From Brachionus manjavacas (taxonomy: Eukaryota > Rotifera > Eurotatoria > Ploima > Brachionidae), in NCBI GenBank assembly GCA_019054805.1, contig JAHQIY010000006.1, forward strand, positions 4,030,001 to 4,094,000: a stretch of DNA of 64,000 nt, read 5' to 3'. Made by a program: the position numbers and the translations under genes. Within the stretch, counting starts at the first letter, position 1, and each line of letters opens with the position of its first letter. The notes below the pieces were generated by a model. That model was not told the origin of the DNA. It did no database searches and saw only the letters and a program-made list of their open reading frames with translations. Positions 7,173-19,000 of this stretch are shown one piece after another.

Positions 7173-8623
7173 GTTGACAAATTGTTTTTTAAATCTTAAT
7201 AATTAAAGAAAAATGCGTTTTTTAAAAAATGAAATCTGAAAACCACTATTAGTAATAAATTGCGAAATTTATTTTTAAAAAATATTTTCCTATTTTTGAC
7301 TAAAATATTTAAATTTTAGCAATATTAACAATATTATGTTTATGACATAATTTATAAAGAATAAACTTAGAAATACCAAGAAAATTTTAAAATTTGAAAT
7401 TTAATATCAACCTTAAAAGGTAAAAATCGATTTTGTTTTATATTTAAATATTTTTTATTAATTTTTTGTTTCCGATTAAATAATTATAAAAACGTTTAGC
7501 AAAATTCGATACAAGAGAACAGAAAAATTGTTTTTGAAAAAATATGAAATTTTCAAAAATAAATCTACAAATCTAATTACCTCATAAAAATAAAATTCCT
7601 TTTAAATTTGAAGGATTTATACAGAAATTTTGAAAAAATGAAGCAATACATGTTGCATTTAACACAAGAATTCCAGTTGAAAAAAACACAAAAATTTAAA
7701 TACTGTTTTCATATAAATGAGCAAAAAAAGAATTTTGATATTGTTTTTTTTTATTTTTTAAATGCGTTTGCTAAAAATATAGAATATCAGACTATTATTT
7801 TACAAATTAAATAAAAAAATTTCAGCTTCTAGAATAACCTTAAAGATTTAATATCATTTCGTTCTTTTCTTCTACTCTTTAAACCTTATTTTATAAGATA
7901 TTTCTTTATAAAATATCTGAATTTTCTTTGATAGAAATTGATAATTTTGCTTGATTCCTATAAATCAAGTATTTATATCCAAAATTTTCGATATTAATTT
8001 GGTCAAATTTGTTAGATATTTGCTAATTTCTTTTGAATATTTAAAAAAAGATTTGTCTAGGAAAAGTAAATCAAATAATGGATTAGCGATTTAATGTTTC
8101 TTTTGGTAATTGATTGTAAAATTTAGATTAAATGAAGCAGAGCTTAAATATAGTCTGGATGGTTAGTTAAATTTCTTTTCATTAACTATTTTGATAAATT
8201 GGATAAACTTAATATTTGATTTACGATACTGATATTTATGTATATTTGATCCAACCTTTTCTAAATTTAATTTTAATTTATAATTAATTGAATTTAACAA
8301 AAAAAAATTAAAAAATTATTTTTCAAAATTTTGTTTTTTTATTATACAAAGATAAAATTTGAAAAGAATGTAAACTAAAAGTATTTTTAAAATAAATTAT
8401 ACAAAATTTAATTCGAATTTTACAATAATGGTTTAATAAAAAGACTTAATCAAACTAAAGGTGCAGGATTAAATCATTCTTTGGATTATATTTAAGCTTA
8501 ATTCTTCATGTCAAATGTGTACGATACTTAAGTGATCATTTTCAAAATTAGAGCTGCAGGAGTCAGTAAAATATCCTCTTCTTTTTAACAAATTCATAAA
8601 TAATATTACAATAACGAAAAACA
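7173..8623. other. AT-rich intergenic DNA
   Basis: Nothing recognisable between the EF-hand gene and the MULE target duplication. A 68-codon plus-strand ORF at 7608-7814 is Lys/Phe/Gln-rich without domain features and is treated as chance. Confidence 0.5.
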
Positions 8624-8631
8624 AAATTAAC
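8624..8631. repeat. MULE target-site duplication, left copy (second copy 11685-11692)
   Basis: AAATTAAC directly abuts the left terminal inverted repeat, and an identical 8 bp follows the right one. Confidence 0.85.
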
Positions 8632-8700
8632 GGTGAACTATCAAAATAGAGAAAAATAAAATTAGAAAAAAAAATATAGAGAAAAAATATAGAGAAAAGC
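8632..8700. repeat. MULE left terminal inverted repeat
   Basis: It starts GGTGAACTATC and then carries three or more ATAGAGAAA-like units. Its partner is at about 11600-11684 in inverted orientation. The outermost ~20 bp are best conserved. Confidence 0.8.
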
Positions 8701-8764
8701 ACAGACAATATTTTTAATACAAATAAATAGCTTTTTTATTCATCTTTTTTAAATTCAAATAAAA

Positions 8765-11513
8765 ATGAGCCAAATTAATTCTCCGCTTGTAAGTAGACTT
8801 AGATCTAACAAGGATTATAAGCCTAGCAAAGAGAATTTAATAAAAAAAACAAGAACTAAAATGCAATCAATTAATGTAAATGGTTTTGGAATTTTAGTTG
8901 ATCAATTGTGCTCAGGTCAAAGTATGGTGACGAGTAATAATGACGATGAAAATCCGGATACAGTTTTTGCTGATATTGATTTTTCATTTTATAATATTTG
9001 TGAAAGAATGATTGACTGTATGCAAAATTTGAAGATTAATATTTTAGACGAACATAATTGGAGTCTAAATATTTCCCAAAAAAGTGGCTATAAACTTTAT
9101 TCAAATGGTTTTTGTTATGTTGTAGATAAACCAAAGAAAGAACTGGTACAAGAAGCGTCAAAGATTTATTGGCGTTGTGAGTTTTACAATGAATGTGGTG
9201 AACGAGGCGTGTCTTGTGGACTTAAACCACCTTTCAAGGAAACAAAAGTGCATAATCACATGCAAAAACCTAAGAGCAAAGAGTTTCTTGTAAGTAAACA
9301 AGAATTAAAAAAACGTGCACTAATGTCAAATGATGCACCAAGAGCACTAATAAGCGAATTTCAACTCAGCCAAAGTGATAATTGTATCGGAAATTGGCCA
9401 AACAAAAATGCGATTAGGCAGCAGATAATTCGGACAAGAAATGTGAATGCAAAGGGTAACCCTAAGTGCTTAGAAGATGTAGATATTCCCGAAGATTTAA
9501 GATTGACTAATAAAAATTCTAAATTTTTTTATGTTGATTCTGGAAAGAATGAAAAAAAAAGAATATTTTTTTTTTACAAAAGAGCAAAATATAAAACTTT
9601 TGAGCTCATATCATGACTGGTACTGTGATGGTACGTTTGATATTTCACCAACTGTGTTTAAACAAGTTTATACTATTCATATAATCATTAGGTGCACTAC
9701 TCTTCCAATGTTATACGCTTTTCTTCCGAATAAGAAGCAAATAACTTATAAAAAATTATTCAAGTTAGTTAGTGATTTGATTACAATCAACCCAAAATCT
9801 GTAAATTGTGACTTTGAATTAGCTGCTATAAATGCTTTGAGGTTAGTATTTAAATGTAAAATCTATGGTTGTTTTTTTCACCTATCACAGTCGTTCTGGC
9901 GACGTGTTCAAACAAACCATTCAAAGATTTGGTTTAACGAAGATTTTAGGCAAACTTTTCGTCAAGTTCAGTCACTTGCTTTTGTTCCGTGTGAGGATGT
10001 TGTAAAAGGCTTTGATTTAATTAAGAATAAAGCAGCTAAAAACTTTGTTTTTTTTTTAAATTATGTCGAGAACAATTATATTGGAGTTTTTAGAAACAAT
10101 AAACGTGTGTCACCCCGTTTTCCAATAGATATTTGGAATTTACACGAGAGAGTTAAAAAAGACTTGCCTAGAACCAATAATAATGTTGAGTCTTGGCATT
10201 CCCGTATAAAAAGCGATGCAAGACATAATCTTATTTTTTGTAAGTGTAAATAATTTTTGTACCAATCAGGGTTGTATTTTTACAGGTGTTCCTCAGGGTG
10301 CTGTTATTAGCCCATTACTTTTTACCATCTTTATAAACAATATTCCTAAAGTAAATTCAAAAAATAAGAACTATTCTCTTCTTTTTGTGGATGACCTTGT
10401 ATCTTTTTTTATCTTTAAAAAATATGGAAATATTCCCAATACAATAAATAATTACCTTAAAAAAATAGAAGAATGGCTTATAAAATGGAAAATGAAGATG
10501 GCCCCTGAAAAATGTAGCTATACTATATTCTCTGGGAACTATTCTAAAAATCAACCTTTAAATATTAAAATTTTTAAGAAAACCATTCCTTATGATAAAA
10601 ATCCTGTTTTTTTAGGAATAACTTTTGATGAAAGTTTATGCTTTAATGCTCATTTAAATTTTGTTCGTTCTCGATGTGCTGATCGTATTAATATTTTAAA
10701 AGTGTTGTCCCATAAATCATGGAAATTAAACCCTCATACTCTAGTTACAATATACAAGTCCCTTATCGGTTCAATCATTGATTATAGTTTTTTACTCCTA
10801 TCCTAATGTCAGATACAAATTTTTCCCGTATCCAAACTATTCAAAATGTCTCAATAAAATCAATTTGTAAATTTCCTAATGACACCCCTACAAATCTCTT
10901 AGATCAATTCTTTGAAGGCATAAAACTTGACAAAATAGAAATCCGTCTTAAAAACCTCTTTACAAAATATATTAGAAAATGTGTTACATTTAAAAACAAA
11001 CTTGCACTTAATCTCAATGAGGACTATGTTGGTGCATTCGTTAACAGTTCAAGGACCTGTAAAAAAAAAACGCCACTTTGCAGTATCTGGGATGAAAACA
11101 AGCTATGGATCAATGAAAGTGGTCTTTAAATTTTTCTTTATAACAAAAAAACTGTAATCACGCAGTGCATTTTTTTTTTAATTCTTGTTGTTGCTTTTTT
11201 TTTAACTAATCTTAATTTACTTTCAATTCCAATGGCGGAAGGAGTTTTATTACTCAGAGCCATTTAAAAAAATTTAATAAACGTAAAAAAAAAAAAAAAT
11301 CTTACAGTTAATAAAGTAGTTGAATTTTTCCGTTTAGAGCAAAGTAATATGGAATCAGATTTGTTGTTATTATTTTCAGGTAGTCAATTAAAGTCAACAA
11401 GCAGTAAAGCACAAAAAAAAGAAGATAAAATAAAGCGCCAAGTTAATGAATATAAAACAGAAAATTTAGAGTTGTTCCTTACTGGATTTTCAATTTTATT
11501 GATGGAATATTAA
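8765..11513 (+). pseudogene. FLYWCH zinc finger / MULE transposase, broken by frameshift and LINE insertion
   Basis: The reading starts at ATG 8765. An N-terminal FLYWCH-like finger (about residues 105-165) shows GYKLYSNGFCYVV, WRCEF, two further Cys and HNH. The MULE catalytic core follows: first Asp in WYCDGTF, second Asp in VNCDFE, a C-x2-H in IYGCFFHLSQ, and a Glu in NNVESWHSRI. Two lesions are visible. One extra T in the ten-T run 9566-9575 shifts the frame, and a LINE interrupts the codons after DARHNL at 10233. Removing 10234-11304 (insert plus one target copy, 1071 bp) rejoins the same frame to a typical MULE C-terminus (KVVEFFRLEQSN..., stop at 11511-11513). The undamaged protein would be about 558 residues. 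The frameshift could also be an assembly error in the homopolymer. Confidence 0.9.
10234..11297 (+). mobile_element. 5'-truncated non-LTR retrotransposon (LINE) with poly(A) tail
   Basis: It begins abruptly inside the reverse transcriptase domain just before TGVPQGAVISPLLF. It keeps the catalytic box as FVDD (about 10384-10395) and the thumb/connection region (KSLIGSIIDYS), shifts frame near 10797-10806, continues as SRIQTIQN..., and ends at about 11127, followed by ~170 bp of 3' UTR and a run of about fifteen A. A 7 bp duplication AATCTTA (10227-10233 and 11298-11304) flanks it, the hallmark of target-primed reverse transcription. The style of the C-terminal part resembles Jockey/I-like LINEs; the clade is not certain. 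It has no endonuclease domain left and is non-autonomous. Confidence 0.9.
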
Positions 11514-11599
11514 TTAATTAATTAGTTTATCAGGCTTTTTCTATTTTTTTTTCAATAAAAATTTTGTAATTTTTTTTCTCTAATAAAAATATTCTCTAA

Positions 11600-11684
11600 T
11601 TAATTGACACATTTTTTTCTCTATAAATTTTTCTCTTTTTAAGCTATTCTCTAAAAATTTATTTCTCTATTCTGATCGTTTACC
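11600..11684. repeat. MULE right terminal inverted repeat
   Basis: It ends ...TCTGATCGTTTACC at 11684. The reverse complement aligns with the left end from 8632, including the TAGAGAAA units (here as TTTCTCTA). Confidence 0.8.
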
Positions 11685-11692
11685 AAATTAAC

Positions 11693-13051
11693 AGATGCTT
11701 TTCTCCTGGCTTTTTCAGTGGAAGATAAATATACAATGTATATTAAAAATTGTAATCAAAAAACAAAATTAATCAAAAATCAAAAAACACAGTAGCTCAA
11801 ACAGTTTGACAATAAAAATCAATAAAATTTACAATCTAGAATAAAAAAAACATTTTTATTGCAAAAAAAAATCAAATAAGTATGGTCAACAAAAAAAAAA
11901 AACCTTGAAATAAACTGTCAATCAAGAATTTTTTACACCAATATGAGTTGTTGAAAAAATTTCAATGTAATTTTATCTTAACAGATAGTAATAAGAATAA
12001 AATGACAATTCTATTGAGGTTCAGTTTTTAATAGAAACAGCAATCAAAAATAAATCAACGACATCTTATTTTCTTAAAAAATAATTTTTTAGACTTTTTA
12101 TTATTATAATTTTGGGTTTTCAAAAACCAAAATTTTGGTTTAAAAACATGATGAATTAGGTTTCCTATAACATGGGACCGATGGTATGTAGCCTTAGAAA
12201 CATAACCCGAAATCTGTTTTTAACCATTTTTTTGCAAGAGTATGTGGTAATACAAAATCAACAACAACATATCGCTTTCGAAAAATTAATTTAAAAATCA
12301 TTAAATGCTGCTCTAATAACAAAGTAAAATAATAAATAATAAAAACAAAGTAAATACAAAATTAAATATTTTTATGTATTTGTTACAAAATTGATTTTTT
12401 AATTTTTAAACTTCTTATACAATAACTACCATAATCATAAACTTTTGATTTTAGAAGCTTGCCTTTCAGATATTAAACACTTAGTAATCTTTTACGTTCG
12501 TTTTGTATTTTAATTTAAATAAGTTATACAATATTTAATAATTTTGAATTTAAAAACTATTTGAAACATTGGTAAATTAATTAATTTATTGAAAATAAAT
12601 CTATTTGAAAAATTTGATCTAAAATTTAAAAATCGTATTAAGATGATATGATAAAATTTTTAGCAATTAATATATTCGTTTGGCATAAACGAATAAAAGT
12701 CGAAATTGTTTAAATATTTATTTTTTTTATGTCAAAAAAATTTTTTTGAGTAACAATGAAAATTAAAAATAAAAGCCTTAACTAAATTTTAATTTTAGAT
12801 ATAATTTGAATATTTTAAATTTTAAATTATTATTATTATTTTTAATGAAAATAAAAAAAAAGCCTGAACTCAATTTTAAATAATTCTATTGTATTAATTG
12901 AAATATTCGATCGTTTTTTGAATATTAATTTAGATTATATTGTTTAATATAATTAAAACATATTTCAATAAATTAATTTATTTTAACTAAAATTTTTTCT
13001 CAATTATTGATATAAATACAAAGAAAAGTAGAATAAAAATTTAACATCATC
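11693..13051. other. AT-rich intergenic DNA
   Basis: No ORF, structured RNA or repeat was recognised between the MULE and the 3' end of the BLTP3 gene. Confidence 0.55.
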
Positions 13052-13068: not shown

Positions 13069-16000
13069 CTAAAATTTAGACTGGCTTATTTTTTTCATCA
13101 AACATTCACGCTCAATATTTAGCAGAGCTACATAATCTTCTGTTTTTTTAAGCTTTGATTTTAGCAATTCATTTTCTTCCTGACATCCTAAAAGTAAAGA
13201 CTCAAACTGTTTTCTTTCAATTTCAAGTGTTTCATTTAAACCCTTTACTCTATCGTCTTCACAGCCATTTATCATACTACCCATCTTTAATTTTTCTATT
13301 TCTTTTTTTAGTATCTGATTTTCTGTTTCGACCAAGTCCAATTTAGAGCTCATTTCTTTCTCTTTTGCATTAAATTCTAATTTTTGTTTTTCCATTTTAG
13401 TCTGTAACAAATGATAAGTTTCTTTTTCTTTTCGCAGCATAACAACCATCGAAGCAAATTTGTCAGAATCAATTTTCAAATTTTTTCTAGATCTAAACTC
13501 AAAAGCTGATAAGTCAGATTTGGATTCTTGGACAAATTTCGATTCACAAAAAACGTTCTTGTTTAATTGTAGCTTCAAATTAGCCGAGTCAGACTCGCTA
13601 TTATTTCTAATTTTTGTTTCATTAATAAAAACTTTATTGTCCGAGCTTTTTCTGAATAATAAGCTATCTACATATAGATCTAAAACCTTGGGGTTATTTT
13701 CATAATCTTTAAAAGGATCATCGTTTAATTTAACTCCACAATTGTAAATGTAGGCTTTAATAGTTATTGAGTCTTTAATTTCAGCTTTAAATTCATCAGT
13801 GTCATCAACGAGGTCTACTAAAGCGGTCAAAGTCGGAATGTCGAGCTCAAATTTAAAATTTTCCGCAAAAATCTCAGCAAATCCATTGGAACTTTCAAGA
13901 TCATGGGAACTTTTTTTAAATCTAATTAAAATCTCTCTCAATTTGTTTTCATCAAAATTTTGGGATATTTTATCTCTTATTTTAATTTGATCTAAACTAA
14001 TCAAAGACATTAAATTTTCACCTTGTGTTTGAACATAAACTTCCAAATTTTTAAGCTTTATTCCAACTTTAGTCTTAACAGAATCGGTTTGAATTATTTG
14101 ATTATTACTTGAGGTAAATTTTGATGTATTCGAACTGGTCGAATTACTCTTCAACTGGTCTAATTTGTTCATTTGACCAATTGAGGCTGTAAATGAGCTA
14201 GTCTCGGACGCAGAACTGATAGATCTGCTTGGCGAATATTTTAGTGTGTCCAACATATTTTCACTTACCACACTTACATTGTCCTCTTGAGCCAAACTCA
14301 TTATCATCGAAATATTGTCATTATCATCAGCTAGGAGATCTTCACCTGATTCGGACAGTTTATTTGTCAATTTAGTCAAACCACTGAGTGCTTTGTTTGA
14401 TAGATTGGAAGCCAAGCTTGACTTTTCAGTCACATATCCCGAATCTGAGCTTTGCCCTTTTTGTAAATCTTTAAAACTGGGAACACAATTAAAATTGAGT
14501 GAGGAATTGGGCATGTCTGTAGATAGACCATAAACAAATTTTATGTAATTAAATATAAGATCCTTTTCCATTTGCATGGTAACAACATTAAAGTCGTCAA
14601 TGGTAGTGTTTAATTTGTCGCTAGATTTTTTTTCTTCTAAATTAGCGAAAGATTCAAACAAGTCCTCTTGAGATTCTTGAACTTCATTTGTTTGTTGGGG
14701 GTGAAATTGTATGTCCCTTCTTAAATCATCAATAAGCAGCTCAACTTGTACATTGTCAATACGTAGTGCCAAATTAACATTTGGTTCGTTTACTTCTTGG
14801 TCAATTTCTTCATCAAAAAAATCTAATTTAAACGATTTGCGACGAGGTTTCCTTACATTTTCTGCTATCTGGCAACGGCCTCTAAACTTAAGCGTTTGTT
14901 CGGTATCAATTTTAATTTGATTAAAAAAATTATCAATCACATCAACAAATCTTAAAAGAAACAAAATTTGTGAATGATTAACATAGACATTTATATTTTT
15001 GATTCTCGTAGCCACATTTAATTTCGAGTAAATTTTTTTACACAATAATTCAGATTTAATCTTAGATCTAATAAAGGTGGATCTATTTGTGAGACTATTT
15101 GAACGCTTGCGTACTTTAGCATCAAACCCAGTTTTTTTTTCGATTTTTATTATCTTTTCCAAGCGTTTATACGCCTTCATGTACTCACTACTTGATGATT
15201 CATTCCAAGTTTCCTCTTGTTCATTCTGTTCCATTAAAATGGAGCTTTTGCTCAAAAAGTCCCAAACATTGACAGCATAAATTTTGAATGAAGCGTTCTG
15301 AACAAATGGAACACAATCCTTTTCAAGCATATCTACCCATAAACTCTCGATATCCATCATCCATATATCCTTGGCTGCGTCTTTGTTTAAGGCGTTTTTA
15401 TTTAGATTTTTCAAAAAAAGTCCCTCTTTGGCATCAACAATCTGATCATTATGTATTCCTAAGCTATCCCGTATTAAGCTTAAATTATCATTTTGTAGAA
15501 TTTCATTAAAACAAGGCGCCAAATTATTAACTCTTATTTCATTATCTTCAAAATAATTTTTAACTTTAGTTTTAAAATTTATATCTTTATCAATTAGATT
15601 CGATGAAAGTTTGTAAGCTTTTTCGCACGTAGCACTAAACTCATCATAATTTTTATTAGATTTGTTAAGTGTTCGATTAGTCAACACCAACTTTGCCATT
15701 CCGATTTCTATGCCATTGGGTCTAGGGATAAAATTTTGATGTCGAAAATTTACATTTGAATCCATTTTAGCCGGATAAATTGTTAAATTAACTTTTGGAA
15801 GGATCACTTCCAAATATGTGTCACAATGAATGTAATTTTTGGCAAAGTGATTTTCATGCTTTTTTTCAGACTTGTCTTTTTCGTCAGCTATCAACTTCTC
15901 CCTCCAAAGCGAGAACGCCAGCGTGTTCAACCACAAGAGGGTCAAAAAATCGATGTTCAAAAGAATAGGAGAAATTTGGACGTAGATTTGTTGCAAAGGC

Positions 16001-19000
16001 ACTGGATAATTGACATTTTCAGCGAAATAAAAATCGCTTAAAAAACAATTAGCGAACAATGTTTCAGTTGGAAGATTGAACTCGGAGGAATTCGAGCTCA
16101 TAAAAGGGCGCATATTAAACATTTGCTGGTCAAGAAAGTAATTTTTCATTTTTAAAAAGTCGTTTATAGAATCGTAGGTTATAGGTTCTGACATTGATTT
16201 TTCTTGATTTAGTTTTTTTGTTCGCATGGAAGACACATTAGCCTGCTTATTGGATAGATTAGTAGTTACTTTATAAATACAAAAATCTTTTAGAGAAAAA
16301 ATTGTGCAGCTCTCGAGCAAATAAATGCCATTTTTAAAGTGGGAATTATTAATGCCATCAATATTTGATTTTTTAAATATTTCTTCAAGTTTAGAAGTGA
16401 ACTCGTTCAGTAAGCTTTTAGACCATTCATCTCTTTGTACAAATGTGTGGTTATAATTGTTCCAGTGTTTTGTTGAAGAGCCAACTTTATGATACGGATA
16501 ATGGTCTAAGCAAACATTTTTGAATAAAAATTGCATTGAACCACCATCAATTAGTTTATTTCCTTTAAATAAATTTTGTTTAATATATCTAATAAAATTT
16601 AAAAGCAAATTTCGGGACTAATAAATTTTGTGACCTACAATTTTTTTTATAAATTGAAGATCGGATACTCGAAACAAATTACAAATATTATTGATATTAA
16701 TTGATGATGAAAATTATATAATTTTTGAAAATGATCTTCTATTTTCTTTAAGATAAAATTATCACAAAATTTAAATTAAAAAAAATCTAATTCTTAACCT
16801 TGTTTTTAATATTTTGTTTACCCGAATACTTGTAAGGAATGGAATGAAGTCTATTAAATCCACTGAAAAAAAAATCTAGGGAAATAAGATAGAAAATATA
16901 AAAGGATAATTTTATATTGAAATTTCTTCATCTATTTAGAAAAAGGCTAATGTAATGATAAAAAATAATATAGAAAAAATAATTATATAAAAAATTTAAA
17001 GTTTTGCGGAGGAGGTAAATTTTGCGAAATAGATGAATCTTTGTCCGCCAAAGTCAAACACTTAAAGGCTGAAAAATTTATTTTAATTTTCTTTAATTTT
17101 TATTATTTTTGTTGAAAGGCAAAGATTTAAATAGAGAGCGCATTTAGGTATTTGAAATTGTTGAAAAAGAAATACCAGGTCAAAAAGATCAGTGCAAATT
17201 CTAAGCTATTTCTAAAGCTCCTTCAAAAATTAAAAAAAACCTAAAAAACTATTTACCGAATTTTACGTAAAATCTAGTAAATTTACGTCTTTTTACTTTT
17301 GTAAATTTACGTAAATTTACAATATATTACGTAAAATTCGGTAAATTTACTATTTTTTACGTAAATTATCGTAAATTACTAAATCCGGAATACCACTGTA
17401 TAAGTATGCTTTTGACACTGAAGTTGATGATAATACTAATGAGAAAGAAGAGGTGTAAATAAGTGCTATTAAATGATACTAAATGCAAGATCGATCTGGG
17501 ATACTTCGAGAATAATATCAAATATTTTGAGACATGGTGGATCATAATTGAACAAAATGAAATATGTTAAACTTAAAGCCCAAGTCAAATCTATAGATAG
17601 AATAATAAACAGACAATTTAAAAGAAAAATACTTCCAAATTGTGAGAATAAATATCAAGCATTAAAGATTTACTAAACCTTTAATATTTGAAATAACCAT
17701 ATTGGTAAAACTCACAGGTGATTTCTCAGACTTTTTTTTTAAATTTACTGACATAATCATAATAATCCATCTCGATCTTAGGACTCAAAGTACGCTATTT
17801 TTGACAAAAACTTTGTTTAAATGTTGCATTCGTTCTATTAAAGTCTCTAATATGAAAAGCTGAATATTTAAAAGACTGTTACCTAAGCTTTAAAAAATAT
17901 TTAAACATGTAAATATGATTGATCTTTAACTAAAAAATTAAATTTGAATTTTTGAAAAAGTGTCAAATTGACACCGCCGGTCCTTTGAGTGTTAGTAAAT
18001 CTAATTCAGAGGTAGACAGTGTCTAAAATTAGGATGTTCCATTTAATTTTTATAGTGTAAAGTGTAGTTAAGACCGGTTTCGACGGGGTAATAATTGCGA
18101 TGTAGTAACCTGTGTGTCAGATCGGAGCCGTTCTAGACAAGGAGATGAGCACCTCCCCATTATCCGCTTGGATAGAAAAGGGACAATTATATAATTTTAA
18201 GTGTCTAGAATTTAGAGCTTAAAAATCGGGTTTTTTTAGATTTAAGTTTCAATTTGATTCTTATTAATTTGAAGATCTATAATATGTGTAGATCAGCTCA
18301 TACTTTTTTACAAGAATCAAAAATCTAACATTATTACCTGAGTAGTTGTCATCAGCATATAGATGGATATTTAGATTAGAAATTTGCAAATGAATAGATG
18401 TTTCTTTAATGTCATACTGCAAAAAAACTTTAGATAAAATTTCGTTGGACGTTTTGTCGGAAGTGTTCAAATTTTTGACCGGAGAATTAGATTTCTAAAT
18501 AAATTTTATTTTAGAAATGATAGATTTTTATATTGCTTTGAATAAAACAAATATTTACATTTTGTTGTTGTTGAATTTGGACATATTTTTTCTTCTGTTC
18601 GAATGATTTAGCCATTAATTTAGATAAAGTTTTATAAGTTCCAATGGCAGCTTTTAACTGAGTATCGCTAGCCATCCAATATATTTCATTAAGAAGAATG
18701 CGAATTGTAGAGTTGATTAAAGATTTATCAGATAGCTTTTTTTTAAGAACTATTCTAATTTTCGATGGATTCATAATTAACTTAATGGAAGTCTGATTTT
18801 GTGAATCAGATTCAATATTAAACGCTTCCAAACGACATATTTCCCAAGAAACTTCTTTAAATAGAATTATCTCATCTTTTTCTAAGTCTTTAAGGCGCGT
18901 GTTTCGGATATCGTTGGTAACTTTCCAATTTGGGGTTACACTGTAGATTCGAATATTTGATATCTTTGTCAAAATTTAAAAAAAAATTAATAAGGTTAAT

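Follow-up and report, generated by a model that had tools for sequence, protein, structure and literature searches.

The root-knot nematode MULE Tm1 contains a nested element flanked by a 7 bp target-site duplication (TSD), as described in PMC3169594, and nested insertions in MULEs of maize and rice are treated in PMC3903597. TSDs of MULEs range from 8 to 11 bp in PMC6446971, while those of the Phantom type are given as 8–10 bp or not indicated in PMC6446971 and PMC3169594. The locus described here is alike in that one element lies inside another and is bordered by a TSD of its own; the guest described for Tm1 is an inverted-repeat element, whereas the guest in our case is a LINE. Phantom-type animal MULEs resemble the host element in carrying a FLYWCH finger upstream of the MULE domain, and the 8 bp TSD found here falls within the range given for them. 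Tm1 likewise resembles it in having MITE-like derivatives (PMC3169594), although the Tm1 TSD reported there is most commonly 9 bp, compared with 8 bp here. The guest, for its part, is similar to 5′-truncated insertions of APE-type LINEs, with endonuclease and reverse transcriptase (RT) in a long copy, variable truncation, a poly(A) and a TSD.

The window, the whole stretch of 64,000 nucleotides that was analyzed (C6:4030001–4094000), was compared with the 114 Mb, 61-contig genome assembly from which it derives. The main finding is that a 5′-truncated LINE was inserted, presumably by target-primed reverse transcription, into a pre-existing MULE, a reading to which we assign a probability of about 0.97. 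The features of the locus, in window coordinates, are as follows.

8624..8631, no strand: left TSD of the MULE, AAATTAAC (8 bp); aaattaac abuts both element ends
8632..11684, plus strand: MULE from TIR to TIR, 3,053 bp with the LINE and 1,982 bp without it; delimited by the TIRs and the paralog ends
8765..9616, plus strand: N-terminal part of the MULE transposase with the FLYWCH zinc finger, ended by a frameshift; open reading frame, PF04500 (E 3.4e-6)
9531..10253, plus strand: part of the MULE transposase with the DDE domain, its stop lying inside the LINE (10251–10253); open reading frame, PF10551 (E 4.7e-6)
9562..9588, plus strand: frameshift region with A- and T-runs, one base longer than in all four paralogs; from the alignment
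10227..10233, no strand: 5′ copy of the LINE TSD, AATCTTA; direct reading and paralog alignment
10234..11297, plus strand: 5′-truncated LINE, from the RT palm to the 3′ UTR and poly(A); family matches, alignment and Pfam
10234..10806, plus strand: LINE reverse transcriptase fragment with the motif FVDD, ending at a stop beyond the frameshift near 10787; open reading frame, PF00078 (E 5e-15)
10806..11129, plus strand: remainder of the LINE reading frame, in a shifted frame; open reading frame and alignment
11238..11265, plus strand: 28 bp block of the LINE 3′ tail, for the most part within a predicted hairpin; 41 exact genome copies
11285..11297, plus strand: poly(A) of the LINE; direct reading
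11298..11304, no strand: 3′ copy of the LINE TSD, AATCTTA; direct reading and paralog junctions
11305..11510, plus strand: codons for the C-terminal part of the MULE transposase (TVNKVVEFF...LLMEY), which share their phase with 9531–10233; from the translation
11685..11692, no strand: right TSD of the MULE, AAATTAAC; aaattaac abuts both element ends

The 7 bp sequence AATCTTA is present twice, at 10227–10233 and 11298–11304, and the poly(A) stands directly 5′ of the second copy; two further A residues could belong either to the poly(A) or to the TSD. Counting the second AATCTTA copy, the segment 10234–11304 measures 1,071 bp. Both the flanking repeat and this length had been given in the initial annotation and are confirmed. 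Its further statement that excision restores the reading frame was found to hold locally at the junction, but not for the transposase as a whole: owing to the upstream frameshift at about 9562–9588, removal of the LINE leaves no intact transposase. Frame restoration is therefore weak evidence for insertion, since the length is divisible by 3 and the transposase frame of this copy is in any case broken upstream.

Further evidence was obtained from MULE paralogs. The genome was searched separately with the left part (8560–10233) and the right part (11298–11720) of the MULE, and four close paralogs containing both parts were identified: C6:5239844 and C6:5253553 (c6a and c6b; loci L050 and L051), C12:211069 (c12) and C3:7391746 (c3). 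In all four, exactly 7 bp are common to the matches of the left and the right part, and GACATAATCTTACAGTTAATAAAGTA is read at the site, with a single AATCTTA and no insert; the empty junction is GACATAATCTTACAG in each case. Every paralog can be translated through the site without a stop, as ...SDARHNLTVNKVV... in c6b, c12 and c3 and as ...SVARHNLTVNKVF... in c6a. In the c3 copy, part of the transposase interior is missing, but the junction is intact. The two C6 copies, located 14 kb apart, share the same flanking bases at both ends, with one differing base on the right side, and their flanks suggest that they are probably a segmental duplication of one MULE insertion; the independent empty sites thus number three, not four. 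Additionally, a relative of about 70% identity (C3:403559–404142, L024) crosses the site uninterrupted. No LINE match was observed inside the element in any of the 13 close and distant MULE loci fetched. Among these loci, a LINE match appeared only in two views of the C3 copy, as a 74% fragment outside the element. This LINE-like fragment (about 74% identity) lies about 450 bp past the end of the C3 MULE copy (L053, also L013 and L015).

The insert itself displays an RVT_1 domain (PF00078, E 5e-15), a 3′ UTR and a poly(A) run. The segment 10234–11297 belongs to an interspersed family with at least 55 matches listed in the genome, 28 of which reach at least 93% identity (one of them belonging to a second LINE family and covering only 39 bp of tail). 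Inspection of the 5′ side of the seven best other copies revealed that six continue past the truncation point with nearly the same sequence, while the seventh viewed, L008, begins 12 bases further in. Many matches begin at one query base, which could be read as a fixed LINE 5′ end; as six of the seven continue upstream, the common match start is the end of the LINE part of the query. An intron reading of the first 50 bp of the insert (GTAAGT...ACAG) was also rejected, the bases being RT codons (FFVSVNNFCTNQGCIFTGVPQG) continuous with the longer copies. Twenty LINE-family loci were fetched for comparison of 5′ ends and for alignment. Their 5′ ends vary (L061, L062, L067–L070, L074, L076, L077), forming the usual truncation series; other copies are A-rich at the 3′ end, and the longer ones extend on their 5′ side over the remainder of the reverse transcriptase. 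The alignment to longer relatives proposed in the initial annotation thus bears out its claim that the LINE lacks its 5′ part.

The longest copy examined, L064, contains an APE-like endonuclease (PF03372, E 2.8e-14; PF14529, E 2.4e-13) and a reverse transcriptase (PF00078, E 8.2e-24), in separate open frames of this one copy. A phmmer comparison of its RT part with solved structures placed R2 proteins nearest, yet the R2 endonuclease differs from the one found here, which belongs to the APE type. The window copy has the TSD, poly(A) and 5′ truncation expected of an APE-type LINE, and its identification as a 5′-truncated APE-type LINE copy is supported. Twelve further LINE copies have a definable 5′ end, and of these only L080 is bordered directly on both sides by a long repeat (17 bp), so TSDs are not general in this sample. 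In L074, a 13 bp repeat has its 5′ copy several bases off the LINE start; the repeat of L061 is also displaced by several bases, and that of L069 is mostly A. The remaining 8 of the 12 copies showed no convincing TSD.

Sixteen of the twenty fetched copies were aligned, L077–L080 being excluded for insufficient length. Within the 1,056 bases compared, the window LINE contains 14 substitutions shared by no aligned copy, and in this 16-copy alignment it is gapped at the T-run near 10787 and near 11179. A substitution at 10388 changes the RT motif from FADD, as in L061, L064 and L072, to FVDD. The LINE reading frame shifts near 10787, where the window copy lacks one T relative to 14 of the 16 siblings; the run of L062 is as short as that of the window, and L069 lacks a further base. 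The frameshift noted in the initial annotation is therefore present, but not strictly the element's own, and it may be old, recurrent, or due to slippage or assembly error.

The host MULE is bounded by TIRs of at least 22 bp, GGTGAACTATCAAAATAGAGAA on the left and GGTAAACGATCAGAATAGAGAA on the right on the other strand, and its four paralogs have nearly the same ends. The MULE domain (PF10551) scored 27.4 bits in the window and 25.3 bits in c6a, against a curated cut-off of 27.6, while FLYWCH scored 27.5 and 30.4 bits, respectively, with a cut-off of 23.6. A single open reading frame in c6a holds FLYWCH followed by the MULE domain, in that order. In a TIR and TSD survey of 12 loci (5 MULEs and 7 MITEs), both ends were recognized in 11. 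Eight of these are flanked by a perfect 8 bp repeat, c6b and m_c1 match at 7 of 8 bases and c12 at 6 of 8; c6a and c6b do not count as independent here, and several of the repeats consist of A and T only and are hence weak. The frameshift at about 9562–9588 is private to the window copy among the five MULE copies compared, none of which has an unbroken transposase frame. The LINE thus sits in a MULE copy that is also broken elsewhere. Its insertion point is C-terminal of the Glu in NNVESWHSR, which we take to be the third catalytic residue of the MULE transposase. Neither the MULE nor the LINE of the window would be expected to move by itself.

Seven MITE loci related to this MULE were fetched, six of them complete (370–493 bp; L054–L058 and L060). 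The complete MITEs consist of 8632–8729 of the MULE fused to 11457–11684, position 8729 being joined to 11457 in five and to 11460 in the sixth. As they are joined at the same place, their sequences suggest that all six probably descend from one internal deletion of the MULE. An exact 8 bp TSD was observed in five, and a 7/8 match in one. The seventh locus, L059, has no recognizable left end.

The order proposed in the initial annotation, MULE first and LINE later, follows from the nesting and is corroborated by the 7 bp duplication, the empty paralogs and the longer LINE copies. Sequence divergence points the same way: private substitutions amount to 35 of 1,574 sites in the MULE and 14 of 1,056 in the LINE, counts that are defined slightly differently, and this fits an older MULE, yet the difference is not significant (Fisher p = 0.11). 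A fused element, in which the RT segment would be native to the MULE family, is consistent with the insert keeping the MULE phase (1,071 = 3 × 357) and with its first codons being open in the MULE frame, but this frame is closed by a stop after 20 bp of the insert. The presence of the RT segment in all MULE copies had been named in the initial annotation as the observation that would speak for such an element; the segment was found in none of the four other close copies, and it is absent from the 70% relative. Moreover, after setting aside the 39 bp tail match of the second family, 26 of the 27 LINE stretches with at least 93% identity lie outside the five MULE intervals, and the single one inside is that of the window. 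The empty paralogs refute the fused element, and its probability is negligible.

The same comparison bears on whether the LINE entered the MULE elsewhere and the composite was then brought to this locus by MULE transposase acting in trans. Such a move would be mechanically possible, the TIRs and the 8 bp TSD being intact around the composite, and the existence of MITEs in the family suggests mobilization of copies with internal changes. However, a composite was observed in just one of the five MULE intervals compared, with no sign of it moving as a unit, and a simple later insertion is more economical; we consider this history highly improbable. The joining of two loci by gene conversion or an assembly artefact could draw on the two frameshifts, in the MULE and in the LINE, both of which lie in homopolymer runs, a common place for assembly errors. 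Against this, an exact duplication of 7 bp, a poly(A) bordering the junction and empty sites with a single AATCTTA are the signature of retrotransposition, not of misassembly, and the likelihood of such an origin appears minimal.

Under the preferred reading, insertion of the LINE into a resident MULE, the MULE with its FLYWCH finger, MULE transposase, TIRs of at least 22 bp and 8 bp TSD would have inserted first. Later, the mRNA of an APE-type LINE would have been reverse transcribed into it by target-primed reverse transcription, with the LINE endonuclease cutting the target at AATCTTA and the poly(A) end annealing. Synthesis would have stopped about 1.06 kb in, and joining of the second end would have produced the 5′-truncated copy and the 7 bp duplication, truncating the transposase C-terminally of the presumed catalytic Glu. 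We infer these biochemical steps from LINE biology, while the insertion and the order of events are read from the locus and its paralogs.

The 3′ tail of the LINE contains a 28 bp block (11238–11265) with 41 exact copies in the genome, compared with 0 for the reversed control. This block is shared with the second LINE family, whose coding part is only about 70% identical. Twenty-three of the 41 sites overlap the listed matches of the first family; among the other 18, 13 fall in 3′ UTR matches of the second family (from the best 40 of 484 candidates scored), and five lie beyond the listed matches of both families (C2:2788725, C2:6990237, C7:3961618, C16:1561384 and C24:362525). Tail-sharing SINEs may be a candidate reading for such 28-mer sites. 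At C7:3961504–3961645, an 82% match to the MULE left end was observed within 50 bp of an exact LINE-tail 28-mer, which may be a further LINE fragment next to or within a relative of the MULE. The hairpin ATGGC...GCCAT is predicted at −10.0 kcal/mol over 37 bases, a value calculated without a shuffled control. No compensatory change was seen in the hairpin in eight second-family tails read by eye; L084 breaks an outer-stem pair, L086 and L088 break an inner-stem pair, and L085 keeps a G-U. As three of the eight tails break a pair and covariation is lacking, the tail block demonstrates conservation of sequence only. The block and hairpin could possibly constitute an RT recognition signal that has stayed nearly unchanged across LINE families of about 70% identity, a proposal we regard as somewhat doubtful. 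Stem-loops at the 3′ end common to LINEs and SINEs are a known theme (PMC5135761 and PMC6510757).

Beyond the nested pair, a frame open for 1,179 codons was found on the minus strand at 13069–16608, matching Pfam BLTP3A_B (bridge-like lipid transfer protein, E 3.5e-26). It lies 1.4 kb downstream of the MULE, and the match points to a eukaryotic host, probably an animal.

Overall, the locus represents a textbook nested insertion and ordinary genome history, and it changes no general idea. If the tail block were indeed a recognition signal, the poly(A)-tailed LINEs of this genome would be 'stringent-type' in template choice. The case can serve as an example of a nested insertion that is cleanly documented and relatively dated, and for annotation of the genome it supplies two LINE families and one family of MULEs together with its MITEs.
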